Source of the DNA: a virus
Direction: 5' to 3' (one strand)
IMG/VR virus record: IMGVR_UViG_3300009788_000211
Span: 1-36,173 of that record
Length of the DNA: 36,173 nt
Shown: positions 12,702 through 25,995 of the stretch, piece by piece
Layout of the letters: every line of letters starts with the position of its first letter
How positions within the stretch are numbered: position 1 is the first letter of the stretch
Notes under the pieces: model-generated
The model's database searches: none
Seen by the model: the letters and a program-made list of their open reading frames with translations, nothing else
Told to the model about the DNA's origin: nothing
Position numbers and translations under genes: made by a program

Positions 12702-12862
12702 TGCCTGTAATTTATGGAGAAGGTCATGTATTACTTTCTTTTTTTGATATAGAGTATGAGGATTCTATTTCAAAAATTACAGATGTGTTGATGAGTAATC
12801 CAAATAAGAGATTCAAACTATCACTAGATGTAGCACTACCGTTAAAGAAAAAAAGAGTATGA
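12701..12862 (+). CDS. 53-residue hypothetical protein
   Basis: The last gene of the operon. Its ATG shares a base with the preceding TAA. The product is alpha/beta with a basic KKKRV end. The stop lies only nine bases before the first degenerate unit of the repeat array, so operon transcripts could run into the array on the plus strand. Function unknown. Confidence 0.55.
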   Translation: MPVIYGEGHVLLSFFDIEYEDSISKITDVLMSNPNKRFKLSLDVALPLKKKRV

Positions 12863-12870
12863 TGAAAACG

Positions 12871-13351
12871 TGGGATCGTTTACATGAAGTGGATTTCATC
12901 ACTTAGTTGACTCGCTTGCTTTTGATTGGGTTTCTTATTTGCTTTGACTCGTACCACAGTCTTTGGGTTTCAGCTGTATGATGACTCGATCGGTTTGCAT
13001 GGTTTTCAAATTACTGTTGACTCGCATACGGAGTATGGGTTTCAAATACTTGTTGGTTCGAACATCTTTAATGGATTTCAGCCTTTGAGTGACTCGAATC
13101 TGATACGTGGATTTCAGTCGGGTCCTGACTCGTTTCTTTTTTTTGGTTTTCAAATGCCCCCTGACTCGTATCAGACGGTTTGGTTTGCAAGTGCTTATTG
13201 ACTCGTAGTGCAATTCTGGGTTTCACGGTTTTAATGACTCGTACTCATAGAGTGGGTTTCATGGCGTTGATGACTCGAATCTTTTGTATGGGTATGCAAG
13301 TGGTAGTTATCTCGTAACTAATCCTTGGGTTTCAAAAGTTTTTTGACATCG
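12871..13351 (-). repeat. TIGR-like tandem interspaced guide array
   Basis: Twelve full units plus one degenerate unit at each end. The plus-strand unit is a TGACTCG(W)(A) box, about 9 variable bases, a TGG(G/A/T)TTTCA box, and exactly 9 variable bases. The first box begins at 12908, 12945, 12982, 13018, 13054, 13090, 13126, 13162, 13199, 13235, 13271 and 13308, so the period is 36 or 37. The second box follows 19-20 bases later each time. Degenerate units begin at 12871 and 13344. A fixed 36-base period with two alternating short repeats and two different 9-base spacers matches TIGR arrays that give 36-nt guide RNAs. Orientation is provisional: on the minus strand the array continues from the tas-like gene, and both boxes then carry GA (CGAGTCA, TGAAACCCA) as box C/D-like kink-turns need. 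Not CRISPR: repeats are too short. Confidence 0.85.
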
Positions 13352-13353
13352 CC

Positions 13354-14409
13354 TCAGTTGTCAGTAAATGCTTCTACGACACTATGACCTAAAAGTTGTT
13401 TGGCATATGGTTCTGTTGCTTCTAATCCTTGTTGTCTTCTCCAGGTTTGCCAAACATGAGCTAAAAATATCTTTGATACTTTTCTCATGGCTCGATTATT
13501 AATGTGACCGTCATTGTACATAGTTTTTGAGTTTACAATTTTCTTTGTTGGATGTTTTCTGTGTTCATCTTTTTTTATCTGCTCGTATAGCTTGCGATAC
13601 TTTGAGTTTGCAGATGACTGTTTTACAAATGATGCTGCTGCCTTCCATGCCAGTGTCTTTAGTTTATCACTCCAGTTTGATTGGTATCCTGATGTTCTCT
13701 TTTGTAATATTGGTGTTGTTTCATAATTACATATAGGACAAGAATCAAATGGATGTAGTTTTTTTGCTATAGTTCCTGTTTGTTCATATTTTACTTCAAT
13801 TGATGTTGGTTTTTTGCAATTAGGACAATATCTGTTCATTCCGTAACCTGAATACTGCCAAAGTGATGATACATGCTTGAATTTTTCTATATCATCAATG
13901 TATGCAATTAGTCCTGCTGAAAGCATTGGACCAATCCCTGTAATCTTTGAGAGATACTGTGTGTATAATGCATGATTTTTTAGTTGTTTTTTAATTAGTT
14001 TCTCAATGTCTTGTTCAAAGTTTCGTGCATTCTCAAGAATTGTAGTGATCCCATACACTGATAGTTCCTCTTTAGTTAGCGTATGTCCTCGCTCTGATGC
14101 GCCTATTCTTAATTGAGTCTGGATTCTTTGTCCCTGAAAGTCATAAAAGATGTCAACTAGATTTCGCAGTAGAAATGGTGGAACATTATCTGAATCAGGA
14201 AATGGAATTGGAACATCTTTTTTGGAAATAACACTTTCTGGTTGAATGTATGCAGGACCTTTAGTTTTTTGTCTTGGTTTTTTTACAATCTTTTTCTTTT
14301 TTGTGACCGTTGTTTTTTTCTTGACTATTTTTTTTGGGGCAATTTTTTTCTTTGTTACTTTTTTTGGCTTTGTTATTTTCTTAATTACTGCCTTTCTCTT
14401 TGCTGCTAT
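13354..14409 (-). CDS. Tas-like Nop-domain protein (no nuclease domain)
   Basis: Residues numbered from an ATA at 14409. About 5-60 is an extreme Lys-rich linker. About 80-135 is a helical part with NLVDIFYDFQGQR, like the coiled coil of Nop56/58. About 150-190 carries a helix-hairpin-helix (ITGIGPMLSAGL) and SSLWQYSGYG, the Transposase_20/IS110 C-terminal signature. A zinc ribbon (Cys195, 198, 224, 227) follows, then the conserved helical end (LKTLAWKAAASFVKQ). No RuvC DEDD or HNH motif is seen, so it is nearest to TasA. The frame is open from 14460 but has no ATG, GTG or TTG before GTG 14058, which would cut off the Nop-like helix. ATA 14409 follows AGGAG by 10 bases; a -1 frameshift from the overlapping ParB-like gene is the other option. 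It abuts the guide array. Confidence 0.75.
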   Translation of the reverse strand: MAAKRKAVIKKITKPKKVTKKKIAPKKIVKKKTTVTKKKKIVKKPRQKTKGPAYIQPESVISKKDVPIPFPDSDNVPPFLLRNLVDIFYDFQGQRIQTQLRIGASERGHTLTKEELSVYGITTILENARNFEQDIEKLIKKQLKNHALYTQYLSKITGIGPMLSAGLIAYIDDIEKFKHVSSLWQYSGYGMNRYCPNCKKPTSIEVKYEQTGTIAKKLHPFDSCPICNYETTPILQKRTSGYQSNWSDKLKTLAWKAAASFVKQSSANSKYRKLYEQIKKDEHRKHPTKKIVNSKTMYNDGHINNRAMRKVSKIFLAHVWQTWRRQQGLEATEPYAKQLLGHSVVEAFTDN

Positions 14410-15257
14410 TTCTTTACATCTCCTTTTGATAGCGATAGCCCAGCTTTTGGTGCAGCAATATCAATTATGTAATGATAGATTCCCCTCATTGCATATGTGT
14501 CTCTTTTTTCTGCCAACTCTTTAATTTTTGCTGCCCTCTTCATTACATCTCCAAGCTTTAGCATATTATCTGATGATAGTTTGTTTTCATAAAAAATACG
14601 AAAGAAATTTCTTAAAACGGTATAATGATAAAATAGTGAATCAGGATTTGTTGCTAGCTGTTGTAATATTGGAATGAATCTTTTAATTATTCCAATGTCT
14701 CTATCTGTAATACCTGCGATAAAGTCATCAATGGCAAGAGGTCTTATTGCTCTAATTGATGTTGACTTTGAATAGTGCAGACAATTAATTGCAGTTCTAT
14801 ACGGCAGTTTTCCAACTGAATTGTAATGATCACATTCCTCTCTTAATGAGTTAAAGAATTTACTTTTACCATTGTCAAGTGCCTTTAGATGGTCTGATAG
14901 TGTTAGTGGTTTGCCCAGATTTAGTCGTCTGTAAATTTCTCTACGGTTTCCATCTATGTAGATAAAGAGAATCAAGTCATAGTTTGCAAGACCGTGCCAG
15001 TCCCTTGCATATTTTATTCCCTCTATTCTGTGCTGTCCGTCTAGTACCTCATACTTTGCATTACTTCCTGCAACTACTCGTAATACATTATCTGTAAACT
15101 TGTTATCCATTATTGCATATGCAATCTTGTGCGTTTTTGTTTTGGATATTCTTCTCTCAAACTTTGCATACTCAAAATACTCTTCAATTTTTGAAAGATC
15201 AAAGCTTGGTAAATTTACAAACTTTGCAGTAGGGGGCATGTATACTGTTTTTACCAA
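14406..15257 (-). CDS. ParB/DGQHR-type protein
   Basis: A 283-residue protein. Residues 71-82 hold V-L-DGQHR-IEGIKYA, the signature of the ParB/Srx-like and DGQHR (DndB-like) fold; a helical C-terminal half follows. Such domains bind DNA or nucleotides or act as nucleases. The leaderless start is TTG 15257, 25-32 bases from a CTTTATAA box at 15282-15289; a later ATG at 15239 is possible. Its 3' end overlaps the open Tas frame by about 55 bases, shifted by -1. It may be a partner or an N-terminal domain of the Tas-like protein, or it may be a packaging or partition factor given the terminase next door. Confidence 0.7.
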   Translation of the reverse strand: MVKTVYMPPTAKFVNLPSFDLSKIEEYFEYAKFERRISKTKTHKIAYAIMDNKFTDNVLRVVAGSNAKYEVLDGQHRIEGIKYARDWHGLANYDLILFIYIDGNRREIYRRLNLGKPLTLSDHLKALDNGKSKFFNSLREECDHYNSVGKLPYRTAINCLHYSKSTSIRAIRPLAIDDFIAGITDRDIGIIKRFIPILQQLATNPDSLFYHYTVLRNFFRIFYENKLSSDNMLKLGDVMKRAAKIKELAEKRDTYAMRGIYHYIIDIAAPKAGLSLSKGDVKK

Positions 15258-15297: not shown

Positions 15298-17097
15298 TCA
15301 ATAATTATTAGCTCTCCTTTTCAGGCGAATTGTTGATATCTCAAATCCTGTAGGATCATACTTTTGTTTACCTATCATACAATATATGATACTCATAACA
15401 GAATCCTTTGGATGGTTGAATTCTTTTTTTGCTTTTTGTCTTGGGTCGTCTTTACTAATTTCAGAATTATCCTTATCTAGATCTTTTCGTGTAATGTCAC
15501 AAAAGTCACCAACTAAAAAATCACACTCCCAATCATTTTTCATTGGAATTATTAACTGTGATACTTGTTTGTCATTTTTATCAGGAACTTTACTGCCAAC
15601 AAAGTCAATAAAGTTTTGAATAATTTGTGTCTTATCTACTGAATAGTGTTCTTTTTTCTCACCAATTGTTGGTGCATCAATAATGTCCTGGTTTTTGTGT
15701 CGCATGGTTTCAGATGTAATGTTTCCTGAAGTCCAGCACCCTTTGACTCGTCCTCGTCCAAGCCCTGCAACTTTTTCACCAAATGATGTATATCCTCCGT
15801 TTTGCATTAAAGTAACCTTATCTTTACCATATCCTAAATCAGCTACACAAAAGTCACAACAGTATTCTCCAAATAGTTTTACAAAATATGCTGCCTGATC
15901 ATATTCATGCTCCATTGGTCGAGAATCAATCCATGCAAGCTGGAAACGATTAGTTTTTCTCCAGTAAATAACTACAGAGCCGACAGTTTTAGATGCTGCT
16001 GGTCCAGAACCCCAGTCGATTCCTAAAAATATTAAAACCTCATTTTTGAATTCTGCTTTTAATTTTTTTATTTGATCTGGTGTTAGTAGCGTAAGAGAAT
16101 AATCATAACATGCCTCAACCATTTCAGGAGTAATAGGTCTGCGCATTGCCTTGAAGAATTCTCCATATACGTGGGCTGAAACTATACTTGTTGGATTATA
16201 TTTTTTCTGATACTCTATAGAGTTTTCAGGTCTTGTCTTGTACAGATTTACTGCATCATCAATAGTTAATGGAATTCTTGCAAAGATTGTCTGTGGCATG
16301 TGATACCCGACATATTCTTTATTTTCTGGATGTGCTGCAACCCATTTTCCAGAAACAATATTTTCTGGATGCTCATTGGATAAATAACCACCATCATCAA
16401 ATCGTAGTTTTTCACGCCAGTTCTTATCATCAAATACCCATTCTCTTTGGTCTGATTTTTTCCATAAATTATACCACTCCCCTCCTGCCTCTCCACCAAT
16501 CCCTAAATAGTAACACTGTCCTTTAGTCATAGTCATAGAGTAGAGTGCAGCTGAGCGAAACTGCAATTCTTGGTATTGCGCCTCATCATATACCATCAAA
16601 GAATTTGTCATTCCTTGGACATTGTTATACTCATTTTCATCAGTTCTGACATAGATTACAGAATTATTTGTCAAGTTTATCTCCCCAACATTTGCTCGAC
16701 CGTGCATTAGAAATGGTGAGAGCAATTCATTTCGCAGCATGGTATCCTTACGAAATCTCTGTTTACTCCATGCAGAAACACGGTCTTCCCTATCTACGAT
16801 ATATGTTACCTCTACATTGTCATGCGATGTAGCATAGCAACCAATGATATCAGTACCAAACGTACTTTTCATTGTTTGTCGTCCGTTAACTACAACAATG
16901 TTTGGTGACTTGTCCTTGTAAACCTCAACCCAAAACGGCTCCCATGCAAATGTTCTTTTTATTTTTCCAACATATGGACGAGCAGTTTTAATCCACTCTA
17001 ATGGTTCTGTTGGTAATTGTGTATATGCAGATTTTATTTCAGTAGGATTTATTTGCTTTTCAATACCTTCTAACTTTTTCTCAAATGATTCAGTCAA
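15298..17097 (-). CDS. terminase large subunit (TerL)
   Basis: A 599-residue packaging motor. The ATPase half has the Walker A-type loop GRQTMKST (72-79) and Walker B LMVYDEAQ (167-174, with catalytic Glu172). The nuclease half has acidic residues in FLGIDWGSG (Asp361), CVADLGYG (Asp420) and HPKDSVMSIIY (Asp565), the usual RNase H-like triad. It pumps DNA into the prohead and cuts it. TTG 17097 lies one base after the upstream stop, so it is co-translated with the small gene before it. Expressed with that gene from an ATACC promoter. Confidence 0.95.
   Translation of the reverse strand: MTESFEKKLEGIEKQINPTEIKSAYTQLPTEPLEWIKTARPYVGKIKRTFAWEPFWVEVYKDKSPNIVVVNGRQTMKSTFGTDIIGCYATSHDNVEVTYIVDREDRVSAWSKQRFRKDTMLRNELLSPFLMHGRANVGEINLTNNSVIYVRTDENEYNNVQGMTNSLMVYDEAQYQELQFRSAALYSMTMTKGQCYYLGIGGEAGGEWYNLWKKSDQREWVFDDKNWREKLRFDDGGYLSNEHPENIVSGKWVAAHPENKEYVGYHMPQTIFARIPLTIDDAVNLYKTRPENSIEYQKKYNPTSIVSAHVYGEFFKAMRRPITPEMVEACYDYSLTLLTPDQIKKLKAEFKNEVLIFLGIDWGSGPAASKTVGSVVIYWRKTNRFQLAWIDSRPMEHEYDQAAYFVKLFGEYCCDFCVADLGYGKDKVTLMQNGGYTSFGEKVAGLGRGRVKGCWTSGNITSETMRHKNQDIIDAPTIGEKKEHYSVDKTQIIQNFIDFVGSKVPDKNDKQVSQLIIPMKNDWECDFLVGDFCDITRKDLDKDNSEISKDDPRQKAKKEFNHPKDSVMSIIYCMIGKQKYDPTGFEISTIRLKRRANNY
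15299..15310. promoter_or_regulatory. palindrome operator, near-match copy
   Basis: CAATAATTATTA differs from the consensus only at the last base. It lies at -42 to -53 of TTG 15257 and overlaps the stop of the terminase gene. Confidence 0.5.
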
Positions 17098-21204: not shown

Positions 21205-24200
21205 ATGAATAACGAAATAAAACGTAAAATAACTAGTCTTACACTGATGACAATTATGTTAGCAGGCGGTATGGTTATCGCTGCTCCAGGAATGGATCCA
21301 GCACATGCTGCTAATGCTAACCTAAATGTCTCCGCAAATACATTTGGTGGTCCAATGGTTGTAGAAATCATGGTCAATGATCCAAATCTCAAAGATGATA
21401 CTGATGAATCCATGCCAAATGTTACTATAGATGGTAAAGATTTGGCTATGGCTCAAGGTACCGATGGAAATTGGTATGCATATGTTGCCGATAAAAACAT
21501 GGCAGCAATTGCTAATAATAATTTGGGACTTGACTTTGGTGTACTAATCGCAGATCCAAACACTAATCTAATTACTGCTTTAGGTAGTAATGTTTTTGAT
21601 TCAGATGTTGTAGCTTATTCAGTAGGTCAATCTACTGGTAATCTAGAAAATCTAGTAGTAAAAAGTGCAAGATCATTAGATAGTGCAGGAAACGGTAATG
21701 GTCAAATTCATCTGATAGCAGATGCTTGGCCAATTATCCAAACATTTGTCTTTACAGATGATTCAAATATCAGAGTAATTTATGAAACAACACCATCTCA
21801 AACTGAAGTCATTATATATGACGAAGATATGGATGATTTTGCTTTATACGACACTGATAGAACTTCATATCCACATAACGCAGACATTCACTTGGTACTT
21901 GATGATATGCAATTAAACATCGACCCAACTGATGAGGATGTTTGGACTTTTAATGTTAATAATGGCACATCTTATTATGGCATTCAAGGTACAAACTCAA
22001 TTACTCCTGCTGACCAAGATTCATTATTTTATGGAGATAATGGCTTTTTAGCTATAGATGCTAAACAAGTAATTAAATTCCGAGATAATAATGATAGTAA
22101 TCTTGTGGTAAGTGGTAACACTGTAACAGTAGAAGAAACTTTACCAAACTCTGGTATATTTGAAAACACTGATGCAGCAAATGCCGCAAATCTGTATACA
22201 ACAACTGGATTAATTCGAGATGATAGTGGAATAATAGATTACAATGATGTGAAAAGCAGCATTCTAGTTTCATACTTTGGTGGTTCTATCCTTATGGATA
22301 AAGCATCAATTGATGGAGATTGGAAATCTGGTGAAAAACTCACTGTAACTGTTACTGATGAAGATGAGAACAAAAACACAAAGAAACAAGATATCTTTTC
22401 AGTTTCTAATCCAAACGTAAAGGCAATTCCTGCATTAACAATAGGAACACCAATTACTTTGGATGACAAAACTGTAGTTAATTCTCCAACTGGAACTACG
22501 CTTGTACAATTAGGACTCAATAATGTAATCCTTCAAGATGAGGTCGACTTAGCAACTCAAAACAGAACATCATTTACAGCATGGCTTGGACTCAATCAAA
22601 CATCCACTGCTGTTCAACAAGATGTTGTTGATGCAATTCAAATTGCATTATTAAATGAGATTACTAATAGTGGACCAAATGTTGTTGCTCTTACATCGCA
22701 ACTACAAGGTGCAAATGTTGAGTTAAGTGCAAATCAAACAGCTACTAATACATCACAGAGTGGTGTTGATCAATTAAGTAATCTAATTACGAGCAATACT
22801 TTGTTAATTAATACAAACAATATTGCTATCGAAAGAGGATTTGATGGAACAATACTAACAAATTTCTTTATTGATACATTCAGTAAGAGATTAATTGTGA
22901 CAGCTACTGCACTAACTACATCAACATTACAGATAAATTACGATAACACAATATTGGATCTACAAAATTTCATGGGAGGAAATAATACTAATACATTCCT
23001 CAATTATGATCTTAGTGGATTTGGTATTAATGTTAACGCAGTTTCTGTAACTGATGGAGTAGATACAGTTGAAATTTCATCAAGCGATACAGGATATGCT
23101 AAACTCACTCCAGCTATGAAAACATCTATTGATTTACTATTACCAGAAGCAACTTTGACAGTACTTGTTGAATTTGCTTCTACCACTCTTGAAGGCGATT
23201 ATCCATTAGTAATGGATTTCGTAAGATATGGTGGTGACAATGGTAGAATCAATGATGCAATCTATAGATATGAAGCAGAAGAAAGTACAGATGCTAGTGG
23301 TATCTTTACTGGTACAGTAGAATATATCATGTTGAATCAGATCAACCTCTTTAATGCAGCAACATTTGATAATTTGGAAACCATTGGTGACCAATTAACA
23401 ATTATTGTTCATGAAGATTTGACTGAAGAAGATGCACTTGAATTAATCTATTTTGATGTAGACAAACAGGGTCAAAGAACCCAAGTATCTGATCAAATGG
23501 ATGCACCAACTACTTCTGCTAGAATCACTTTTGATTCCTCAAATTATAAAGTTGCAGACACTGTAACTGTTACAATCGAGGATTCAGACTTGAATACAGA
23601 TAGTGATATCATTGATATCTATACCGTAATCTCAACAAACACAATATCCCATCCAAATTTTGCAGGATTAACTCCTGCTACTGATCCATCTAGACTATTT
23701 GATGTAACATTCAATGATGTCTTATGGGCAAATACTGGTTGTGGTGAAAAAGGTTTGTTTGATTCTATGAATAGTATCATTGAAACTAGCAAAGGTTCTG
23801 GTATTTTCACAGGAACATTCCAGATACCATCAAATTATTGTAATGCAAATGACACCGTAGAATCCGTAACAGGACTTGACATCAAAATCAATTATGTTGA
23901 CTTCAGAGATGCATCTGGTGAAACCATCGAAGTAGGTGATTCAGCAGGTATTAGAGCCCACACTGGCTCTGTATCTCTAGACAGAACAGTTTATCCAGTA
24001 CCATGGGGCGTGGGATTATATTCTAATTTCCCACTCCATGCTACAGCCGCTGGCAATGAAAATCTACCTCAGGGTGATTTGACAATCCATGTGAGAGTTA
24101 ATGACCCTGACTTTGATATTTCAGCAAGTGGTGAGGATAAAATACAAGATGGTACTGTCGGTCCAGTAACAATTAAAGTTAGTAGAGGTGGTAGTGATTT

Positions 24201-25995
24201 GGTACTTGCAACAGCAGGCGCTAACACAACTGCAACTATTGGCGGTATTGTAGAATTAGGTCCAATTACTGAAATTGCCCCTGATGCTGGAATCTTTGAA
24301 CTTGATATGATTATCAAGTACGATGATGGTCCATACACTAATGCATGTCCTGATCCAAATACATCAATTGGCTGTATCTTACAAGGAGATATTCTCCAAG
24401 TACAATACAATGATCCAACTGATGCATCAGGAAGTGCAAATACTGTAACTGATTCTGCAACATTTGACTTGAGAAACGGCGTGCTACAAAGTGATAAATC
24501 CGTATACGTAATCGGCTCTGACATGATTTTGACCCTCATTGAACCAGACTTAGATTTGGACAATGACCAGGCAGAATCATATAATCTAGACTTGATTGAA
24601 TGGGATTCTGATGCTGACCAACTTACCATGGGTAAACTTGGCGGTCAACCAGGAAAATTCGATCCAGAACCATCAACATTTAGAGAAACAGGTGACTCTA
24701 CTGGAATCTTCCAGGTAGTCATCGAGATTCCTAGTGTATTAGGTGGTGATAGATTAGAAAGAGCAGAACAGATTGACCTTGAATATACTGATTGGGGTCC
24801 ATCAGGTGCTGATTATGTAGGAGATGAAGATGAAGATGTTCAATTGACCATCTTCACATCAAACTTTGGAGCAACTGTCGAGCTTGACCAAAAAGTTTAC
24901 ACCTGGACTGATAAAGTCTACATTACTATCGTCGCACCAGATCTCAATTTTGATAGCAATCTAATTGATGAAATCGGCACAACTGCTGATGACAATCTCA
25001 CTGTTTCAACAAGAACCAATGATATTGACAACTACAAGTTAGTCGAAACTGGTACTGACACAGGCATCTTTACTGGTGAGGTTATCCTAACTGGATTCCC
25101 TCACGACGCTGATGGTGATCGTTCAACAGGTGATACTAATGGATATGATACAAGCCCAATAACTTCTGGTACTGGTTCAGGTCCAACAGATGGATTTGTT
25201 GAAGCAGGTGATGATGATGGTCTTACTATCTCCTTTGAATTCTCAGATGGAGAACATGTAACAGGATCAGCATTAATCAGATGGAATATAGGCGAGGCTC
25301 AATGGCTTGAAGCAAGCTATCCAGCAAGTGGTACAGGTGTTATGAGAGTGATAGACCCAGATATGAACATAGATCCAGAAGCAGTCGACAATTTCAATGT
25401 CGATGTGTGGTCTGACTCCGATGCAGGAGGTATTGATCTTACTGTAACTGAAACTAATGAGGCAACTGGAATATTTGAGGGAACTGTGTTCTTCACAGTT
25501 AACGATCAATCTTCTGGTCACAGACTCAGAGTAGCAGAAGGTGACACTGTCACCGCAGAATATCAGGACAATACCTTACCAGATCCGTACACAACAGCAG
25601 ATGAACTTGATGTTTCTGCCACTACCCTAATTGGCACTATAGTACCACCTCTCGAGAGAGCACCAGCTGCTAACTTGAGAACCGTTGATGCATTCGGTAA
25701 CAGTCTAAATACTGTAACCGTTGATCAACAGGTACAGATCAGCGCTGATTTGAGTAATGGTCAGGATAAAAAGCAAGACTTTGCATACTTGGTACAGGTT
25801 CAAGATGGCGACGGTGTTACAGTCTCACTAGCATGGATTACAGGTTCATTAACTGAAGGTCAATTATTTAGCCCAGCATTATCATGGATTCCAACAGACA
25901 GTGGTAGCTACACAGCAACCGCATTTGTTTGGGAATCAGTAGATAATCCTACGGCATTATCACCTCCAGTTAGCACAACAATAAGTGTAAGTTAA
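21205..25995 (+). CDS. S-layer protein homologue (Nitrosopumilus type)
   Basis: A 1596-residue secreted protein. Residues 1-35 are a signal peptide (basic KRKITSL, hydrophobic core, AHA cleavage site). The mature part opens with ANLNVSANTFGGPMVVEIMVNDPNL and holds many repeated units: (V/I)TV-x-D-x-D-LN-x-D, T-x-(A/S)SGIFTGT and GDxxxVxYxDxxxASG. These Asp-rich Ig-like, calcium-binding modules match, from memory, the main surface-layer protein of ammonia-oxidising marine archaea, of similar length. Residues about 410-550 are a low-complexity Asn/Thr/Gln helical insert unlike the rest. There is no ATACC motif upstream; TTTAAATA and TTTCTTAAA boxes look host-like. Virus-encoded host envelope protein or acquired host gene. 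Confidence 0.85.
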   Translation: MNNEIKRKITSLTLMTIMLAGGMVIAAPGMDPAHAANANLNVSANTFGGPMVVEIMVNDPNLKDDTDESMPNVTIDGKDLAMAQGTDGNWYAYVADKNMAAIANNNLGLDFGVLIADPNTNLITALGSNVFDSDVVAYSVGQSTGNLENLVVKSARSLDSAGNGNGQIHLIADAWPIIQTFVFTDDSNIRVIYETTPSQTEVIIYDEDMDDFALYDTDRTSYPHNADIHLVLDDMQLNIDPTDEDVWTFNVNNGTSYYGIQGTNSITPADQDSLFYGDNGFLAIDAKQVIKFRDNNDSNLVVSGNTVTVEETLPNSGIFENTDAANAANLYTTTGLIRDDSGIIDYNDVKSSILVSYFGGSILMDKASIDGDWKSGEKLTVTVTDEDENKNTKKQDIFSVSNPNVKAIPALTIGTPITLDDKTVVNSPTGTTLVQLGLNNVILQDEVDLATQNRTSFTAWLGLNQTSTAVQQDVVDAIQIALLNEITNSGPNVVALTSQLQGANVELSANQTATNTSQSGVDQLSNLITSNTLLINTNNIAIERGFDGTILTNFFIDTFSKRLIVTATALTTSTLQINYDNTILDLQNFMGGNNTNTFLNYDLSGFGINVNAVSVTDGVDTVEISSSDTGYAKLTPAMKTSIDLLLPEATLTVLVEFASTTLEGDYPLVMDFVRYGGDNGRINDAIYRYEAEESTDASGIFTGTVEYIMLNQINLFNAATFDNLETIGDQLTIIVHEDLTEEDALELIYFDVDKQGQRTQVSDQMDAPTTSARITFDSSNYKVADTVTVTIEDSDLNTDSDIIDIYTVISTNTISHPNFAGLTPATDPSRLFDVTFNDVLWANTGCGEKGLFDSMNSIIETSKGSGIFTGTFQIPSNYCNANDTVESVTGLDIKINYVDFRDASGETIEVGDSAGIRAHTGSVSLDRTVYPVPWGVGLYSNFPLHATAAGNENLPQGDLTIHVRVNDPDFDISASGEDKIQDGTVGPVTIKVSRGGSDLVLATAGANTTATIGGIVELGPITEIAPDAGIFELDMIIKYDDGPYTNACPDPNTSIGCILQGDILQVQYNDPTDASGSANTVTDSATFDLRNGVLQSDKSVYVIGSDMILTLIEPDLDLDNDQAESYNLDLIEWDSDADQLTMGKLGGQPGKFDPEPSTFRETGDSTGIFQVVIEIPSVLGGDRLERAEQIDLEYTDWGPSGADYVGDEDEDVQLTIFTSNFGATVELDQKVYTWTDKVYITIVAPDLNFDSNLIDEIGTTADDNLTVSTRTNDIDNYKLVETGTDTGIFTGEVILTGFPHDADGDRSTGDTNGYDTSPITSGTGSGPTDGFVEAGDDDGLTISFEFSDGEHVTGSALIRWNIGEAQWLEASYPASGTGVMRVIDPDMNIDPEAVDNFNVDVWSDSDAGGIDLTVTETNEATGIFEGTVFFTVNDQSSGHRLRVAEGDTVTAEYQDNTLPDPYTTADELDVSATTLIGTIVPPLERAPAANLRTVDAFGNSLNTVTVDQQVQISADLSNGQDKKQDFAYLVQVQDGDGVTVSLAWITGSLTEGQLFSPALSWIPTDSGSYTATAFVWESVDNPTALSPPVSTTISVS

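Follow-up and report, generated by a model that had tools for sequence, protein, structure and literature searches.

A TIGR-TasA guide array in a tailed virus of Nitrosopumilaceae, with candidate targets at integration-linked sites of the host chromosome

An array of alternating short repeats in a viral genome raises the question of which system it belongs to and where its guides are aimed. The array occupies positions 12871–13351 of the 36,173-nucleotide virus record IMGVR_UViG_3300009788_000211, which was analyzed at its full length and is referred to here as the window. The locus is a tandem interspaced guide RNA (TIGR) system of the TasA type with a putative ParB-like partner gene in a tailed virus of Nitrosopumilaceae. 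As an explanation of the whole, we consider it rather probable that the guides of this TIGR-TasA system address integration-linked host sites and block rival integrating elements.

The array is formed by 13 loop repeats, 12 edge repeats and truncated ends, and its 13 guide units are read from right to left on the minus strand with a period of 36–37 bases. The alternation of two unlike short repeats with two variable stretches at this period, described in the initial annotation, was confirmed by repeat mapping. The 9 + 9 + 9 + 9 layout proposed there also stands as the plan of the unit, edge(9)-A(9)-loop(9)-B(9), but the functional strand is the minus strand, and the A and B spacers are occasionally 10 nucleotides long. 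On that strand, the box reported as TGGGTTTCA is the loop repeat TGAAACCCA (variants TGAAAACCA, TGAAATCCA and TGCAAACCA), and the box reported as TGACTCGWA is the edge repeat, composed of two variable bases and CGAGTCA. Eight strict units were counted on the minus strand; the plus strand had none, and neither did any of 200 Markov-1 sequences with the length and dinucleotide make-up of the window. The two unlike alternating repeats of 8–12 nucleotides, the spacers of ~9 nucleotides and the 36-nucleotide period are those of TIGR arrays, which usually hold 5–15 units, and the TGAAACCCA loop fits the published box D/box C pattern UG...CCA. A CRISPR array was rejected, given two short unlike repeats instead of one long repeat and the tas and ParB-like genes as neighbors. 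The array starts a few bases past the minus-strand tas stop codon and ends at a T-run (positions 12848–12856, TCTTTTTTT on the minus strand), which by its sequence is a possible archaeal terminator.

The adjacent tas gene (13354 to about 14409, minus strand) encodes a protein that matches the NCBIfam model NF052498 (TIGR_Tas_endo) over its whole length with 175.2 bits, above the cut-off of 100. By sequence, its closest relatives of solved structure are TasR (PDB 9mty, E 4.9e-30) and TasH (E 4.5e-11), and a tblastn search among annotated phages retrieved Salicola phage CGphi29, the published SpTasH locus. The IS110 model NF033542 scored 34.5 bits, far under its cut-off of 140, and an IS110 transposon was rejected on this basis. 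The TasR alignment begins only at TasR residue 119, and the N-terminus of the window Tas is a lysine-rich tail. Since profile and sequence searches for an HNH or RuvC nuclease domain found no nuclease family in the protein, it is assigned to the TasA subtype. A Cys4 zinc-ribbon-like insertion (CPNC...CPIC; 13729–13827, minus strand), for which TasR has almost no aligned residues, carries four cysteines that are invariant in nine proteins. No ATG, GTG or TTG start for tas was found upstream of 14058, and the open reading frame stays open further upstream. There, an AAATAG overlap with the stop of the ParB-like gene (window 14400–14480, minus strand) is conserved in L002, L003, L006, L008 and L009, which suggests by sequence an ATA start or recoding of tas.

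The gene upstream of tas in the same orientation (14406–15257, minus strand) is a DGQHR/ParB-like gene and a candidate tasParB. Its matches to the DGQHR and DndB families are weak and below cut-off, and the gene order is kept in relatives. Two virus contigs, G019 and G020, carry a second DGQHR gene elsewhere in their own genomes. Both tas and the ParB-like gene had been overlooked in the initial annotation.

Related virus contigs encode Tas proteins with 64–80% identity, and nearly all of those that extend past tas carry a same-strand array downstream. The initial annotation had allowed for variable stretches that are conserved and coding; relatives instead keep the repeats with mostly different spacers. 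Within one unit, box D of the right edge varies in step with box C of the left edge. In a first set of 151 units, the pairs were A-T in 12 of 12 cases and C-G in 6 of 6, and 144 units were paired, compared with 118.7 in shuffles, none of which reached 144 in 20,000 trials. The same set gave no covariation signal within one physical edge. A second edge base pair also covaries. An extended set of 184 units from 14 virus contigs yielded A-T in 15 of 15 and C-G in 10 of 10 cases, and four contigs found later and held out gave 4 of 4 and 5 of 5, that is, nine of nine non-T cases. The units are not all independent, as some share ancestry; in the first set, the 18 cases other than T come from 15 distinct guide clusters. 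Because the covariation connects the two unit ends, edge-A-loop-B-edge functions as a single RNA in which these ends come together, as in the TasR structure; judged by comparative sequence evidence, it is a closed guide RNA. The name TIGR, given initially by analogy, is thereby placed on an adjacent Tas above its curated cut-off and on box C/D pairing with covariation, with box D (UG) and box C (CCA) present in both repeats and covarying edge pairs between the guide ends. Further TIGR arrays with a CGAGTCA edge repeat were observed in L330, L333, L334 and L336, the last of which, with GC-rich spacers, is probably from an unrelated virus.

The guides themselves point to the way in which a target is read. 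Among 84 distinct guides, base 9 of A is complementary to base 9 of B in 43, compared with 24 expected, the strongest signal of 81 position pairs. When the target is taken as A followed by the reverse complement of B, A + rc(B), with one common central base pair, most of the variation within families of shared guides becomes synonymous. The target reading thus appears to be A + rc(B) on opposite strands with a shared central base pair, 17 bp in total, and on comparative evidence the two spacers would lie on opposite strands of one DNA target, as in TIGR. In recombinase loci, this geometry gave nine matches, compared with one to three at other offsets and 1.4 for shuffled guides (p 0.003). In a host chromosome, A + rc(B) with one overlapping base was the sole enriched offset; this enrichment is weak alone because much of the excess comes from one dispersed repeat. 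Match pairs conserved between two hosts were enriched only weakly, and at a loose threshold. The order rc(B)-gap-A was rejected for the leuS guide described below, with matches in 0 of 200 genomes and viral matches at chance level.

The most extensive host matches belong to guides of related viruses. The guide TTGAAYGGT/CATGCAAGG, found in four viruses, matches 60 of 121 Nitrosopumilaceae genomes with at most one mismatch (control 0), and in four of the six loci that were read the match covers the codons at the very end of leuS (HARPFKPAILIE-stop; leuS_arch equivalog). In a fifth locus, L168, the leuS 3' end stands alone beside unrelated foreign genes, with similarity starting just before the target, like the copy expected at an attachment site. 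Of 68 thaumarchaeal elements, 39 are reported to use tRNA genes and 14 the 3' ends of protein genes for integration (PMC6563490). Guides from several viruses lie in frame on catalytic-region motifs of tyrosine recombinases (YMDTYY and FRKRFNT exactly; KEDMMGH; ARYVHM), and the ARYVHM motif was predicted from guide variants before it was matched. The guide CGAAAYGTK/CARTAYGAT, also from several viruses, is exact on QYDTFR of cas1 in a Nitrosarchaeum genome (G004:C1:558269 region; L278:17948–18952), a solo gene near which neither other cas genes nor a repeat array was seen. TCTTGAACR/TTGAARTCA falls on LKSVQE of the same cas1 with two to three mismatches, and all variants of both cas1 guide clusters are synonymous. 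For the CGAAAYGTK guide, rpoB was rejected as a target, as the rpoB loci differ from the guide at one position whereas cas1 matches it exactly. One guide family also matches the ParB-like gene of relatives; this match was discarded (wrong geometry, chance level).

In the window array, guide unit 7 (GGACCCGAC / CGTATCAGA; 13090–13132, minus strand) matches the 3' end of host tRNA-Arg(GCG) with two mismatches, and a pattern covering this guide and its G017 relative occurs at that 3' end in 46 of 80 genomes (control 1). Guide unit 11 (TCATACAGC / AAGACTGTGG; 12945–12988, minus strand) matches, again with two mismatches, a C/D-small RNA (sRNA)-like element. The element, matched by guide 11 and its relatives, is intergenic, has box C/D-like ends and occurs without any change in 58 of 81 host genomes (control 1), and its full-length match to Rfam sR20 is below threshold. 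Guide 9 shows a weaker excess in an SprT-like gene beside this element. Guide unit 5 (ATAAGCACT / AACCGTCTGA; 13162–13205, minus strand) has an exact 18/18 intergenic match in one Nitrosopumilaceae genome. Guide unit 6 (GGGGGCATT / AAAAAAAGA; 13126–13168, minus strand), whose family is common to six viruses, matches with one mismatch an inverted repeat in the recombinase locus L313. This type of repeat, GTAAACGGGGGGC...GCCCCCCGTTTAC, flanks an origin-like AT-rich stretch in L313 (position 904, minus) and L284 (position 1417), and a related half-site was observed 80 bases from the exact guide-5 match. No host target was found for guide 3. Two candidates for guide 4 were set aside: a host repeat of ~33 copies, with one independent one-mismatch match that was treated as chance, and recombinase box II, with at least five mismatches. 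A dispersed repeat, TTAAAACCCTGCAATACATCAAAAATGACGCAATG, with a conserved downstream stretch was observed at ~33 places in the host genome G001 (L180–L259).

Other genes of the window place the locus in its viral context. A terminase large subunit gene lies at 15298–17097 (minus strand; PHROG 675, E 4e-29). The plus-strand gene at 21205–25995 encodes a 1596-residue relative of the S-layer proteins of Nitrosopumilaceae (up to 83% identity over the C-terminal 540 residues) and is, by this similarity, a virus-borne S-layer gene. The S-layer gene, together with guides of the family that match Nitrosopumilaceae genomes, agrees with ammonia-oxidising archaea as the host proposed in the initial annotation. 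No genome contig carrying a close Tas relative was found.

Attachment sites, recombinases and Cas1 have DNA integration as their common theme, and the matches suggest that the guides address those sites of the host chromosome, and those enzymes, on which other mobile DNA relies for integration. We infer RNA processing, binding, blocking, a part for the ParB-like protein and a biological role as follows. Cleavage of the minus-strand array transcript within the edge repeats is predicted to release guide RNAs of ~36 nucleotides, whose ends would pair, box C of the left edge with right-edge box D. A dimer of Tas bound to this guide would separate the strands of host DNA, spacer A would pair with one strand and B with the other, and the last bases of both would read one base pair of a 17-bp target. 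The guides of the virus family appear enriched for attachment-type 3' ends (tRNA-Arg(GCG) and leuS), tyrosine recombinase genes and cas1. Because Tas has no nuclease, its simplest action would be to occupy, open and bend sites and so to block recombination or transcription; together with the ParB-like protein, it most likely blocks or bends these sites. Rival integrating elements, and perhaps Cas1, would be kept from acting. The further proposal that TIGR-TasA of archaeal viruses is an anti-integration weapon, which blocks the integration or excision of competitors as well as CRISPR adaptation because each guide fixes Tas, across one common central base pair, to attachment sites and to the tyrosine recombinase and Cas1 genes of the host and of rival elements, is tentative, with a little less than an even chance of being right.

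Several observations weigh against the blocking of integration. Most guides, including at least 8 of the 13 in the window array, have no assigned target, and the window guides for tRNA-Arg and the sRNA-like element each carry two mismatches. The cas1, leuS and recombinase guides belong to the arrays of relatives and not to the window array, and some matches are host core loci with no known integration link (the sRNA-like element and, weakly, the SprT-like gene). Several targets were found by following the data, and their selection is partly post hoc. The A9:B9 signal is absent from four later contigs (8 of 30), some of them from unrelated viruses, so that the geometry rests mainly on target matches. 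The family matches behind the ParB-like assignment stay under their cut-offs, and neither the Tas model nor that of the ParB-like protein was good enough as a structure to be used.

These points leave room for other readings. Guides that silence conserved host genes generally, in translation and RNA processing, would also account for leuS, the C/D-sRNA-like element and tRNA-Arg as conserved host loci and for an L330 guide that is exact on a RibB-like core gene; the integrase and cas1 matches would then be part of a broad set. Such a host takeover is unlikely, as the leuS and tRNA matches lie at 3' ends, the places of attachment sites, with the leuS end duplicated beside foreign DNA, as recombinase genes are enriched although they are not host core genes, and as the apparent rpoB target is a one-mismatch side match of a guide with its exact site in cas1. 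It is less likely still that Tas and the ParB-like protein bring the virus genome to attachment-like chromosomal sites for RNA-guided integration or for segregation along with the chromosome of the host. Attachment-type sites are among the targets, the ParB-like gene precedes tas in the same orientation, and TasA has been proposed to be able to help integrases (Faure et al. 2025, PMC12045711), but Pfam searches found no integrase in the window, and guides within the coding motifs of recombinases and cas1 fit poorly. Just as improbable is a TIGR-TasA system that is in truth directed at rival viruses, with host matches that arose for the most part by chance or common descent. Spacers of nine nucleotides give short matches, most guides stay unassigned, and no enrichment was found over the greater part of the host sequence or, for any order and gap, in the genomes of related viruses. 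Against this reading stand the control counts of zero or one for leuS, tRNA-Arg and the sRNA element, the spacer variants between viruses that differ at synonymous positions of the matched genes and the single geometry that stands out in the independent data of the recombinase loci.

Among known systems, the locus is most similar to TIGR-TasA with tasParB (fig. S14 of Faure et al. 2025, PMC12045711, as its text describes it), in which a dual-repeat array likewise lies beside a nuclease-less Nop-type Tas gene, with 9-nucleotide spacers, a UG...CCA loop and a 36-nucleotide period; the ParB-like gene in the operon of that system has a candidate counterpart in the window. It differs in the inferred host-chromosome targets, the apparent 17-bp geometry with a one-base-pair overlap and the zinc-ribbon-like insertion in Tas. 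TIGR-TasR (TaTasR, PDB 9mty), the closest solved relative by sequence, shares the box C/D logic and guide end pairing but carries a RuvC nuclease at its N-terminus and reads a target of 18 bp, whereas the window Tas has a lysine-rich tail and no nuclease match. IS110 transposases with bridge RNA share a related C-terminal domain (Transposase_20) and a two-part guide on opposite strands; the window Tas lacks a DEDD domain match, falls under the equivalog cut-off and is served by a many-guide array instead of one bridge RNA. Archaeal box C/D sRNA with Nop5 also has two guides between C and D boxes and end pairing; unlike there, neither kink-turn elements nor genes for fibrillarin or L7Ae were seen at the locus, and its inferred targets are DNA.

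The initial annotation took the locus to extend TIGR to a new host domain. This claim fails, because TIGR has already been reported in archaeal viruses (ref. 39 therein, Acidianus tailed spindle virus) and in a Thermoproteota archaeon, as have tasParB-tasA operons (Faure et al. 2025, PMC12045711). What is new is the target geometry, the inferred natural targets and the perfect covariation between unit ends. The discoverers of TIGR-Tas found no natural targets and left its biological role open (Faure et al. 2025, PMC12045711), and a search of open-access papers, with preprints and subscription journals outside its scope, found none published. If the inferred targets hold, natural targets would be at hand for a TIGR system for the first time, further ones could be sought by the rule A + rc(B) with a single base pair in common, and the system would have a concrete role, open to testing, in the conflicts of mobile elements within an archaeal group that ranks among the most abundant.
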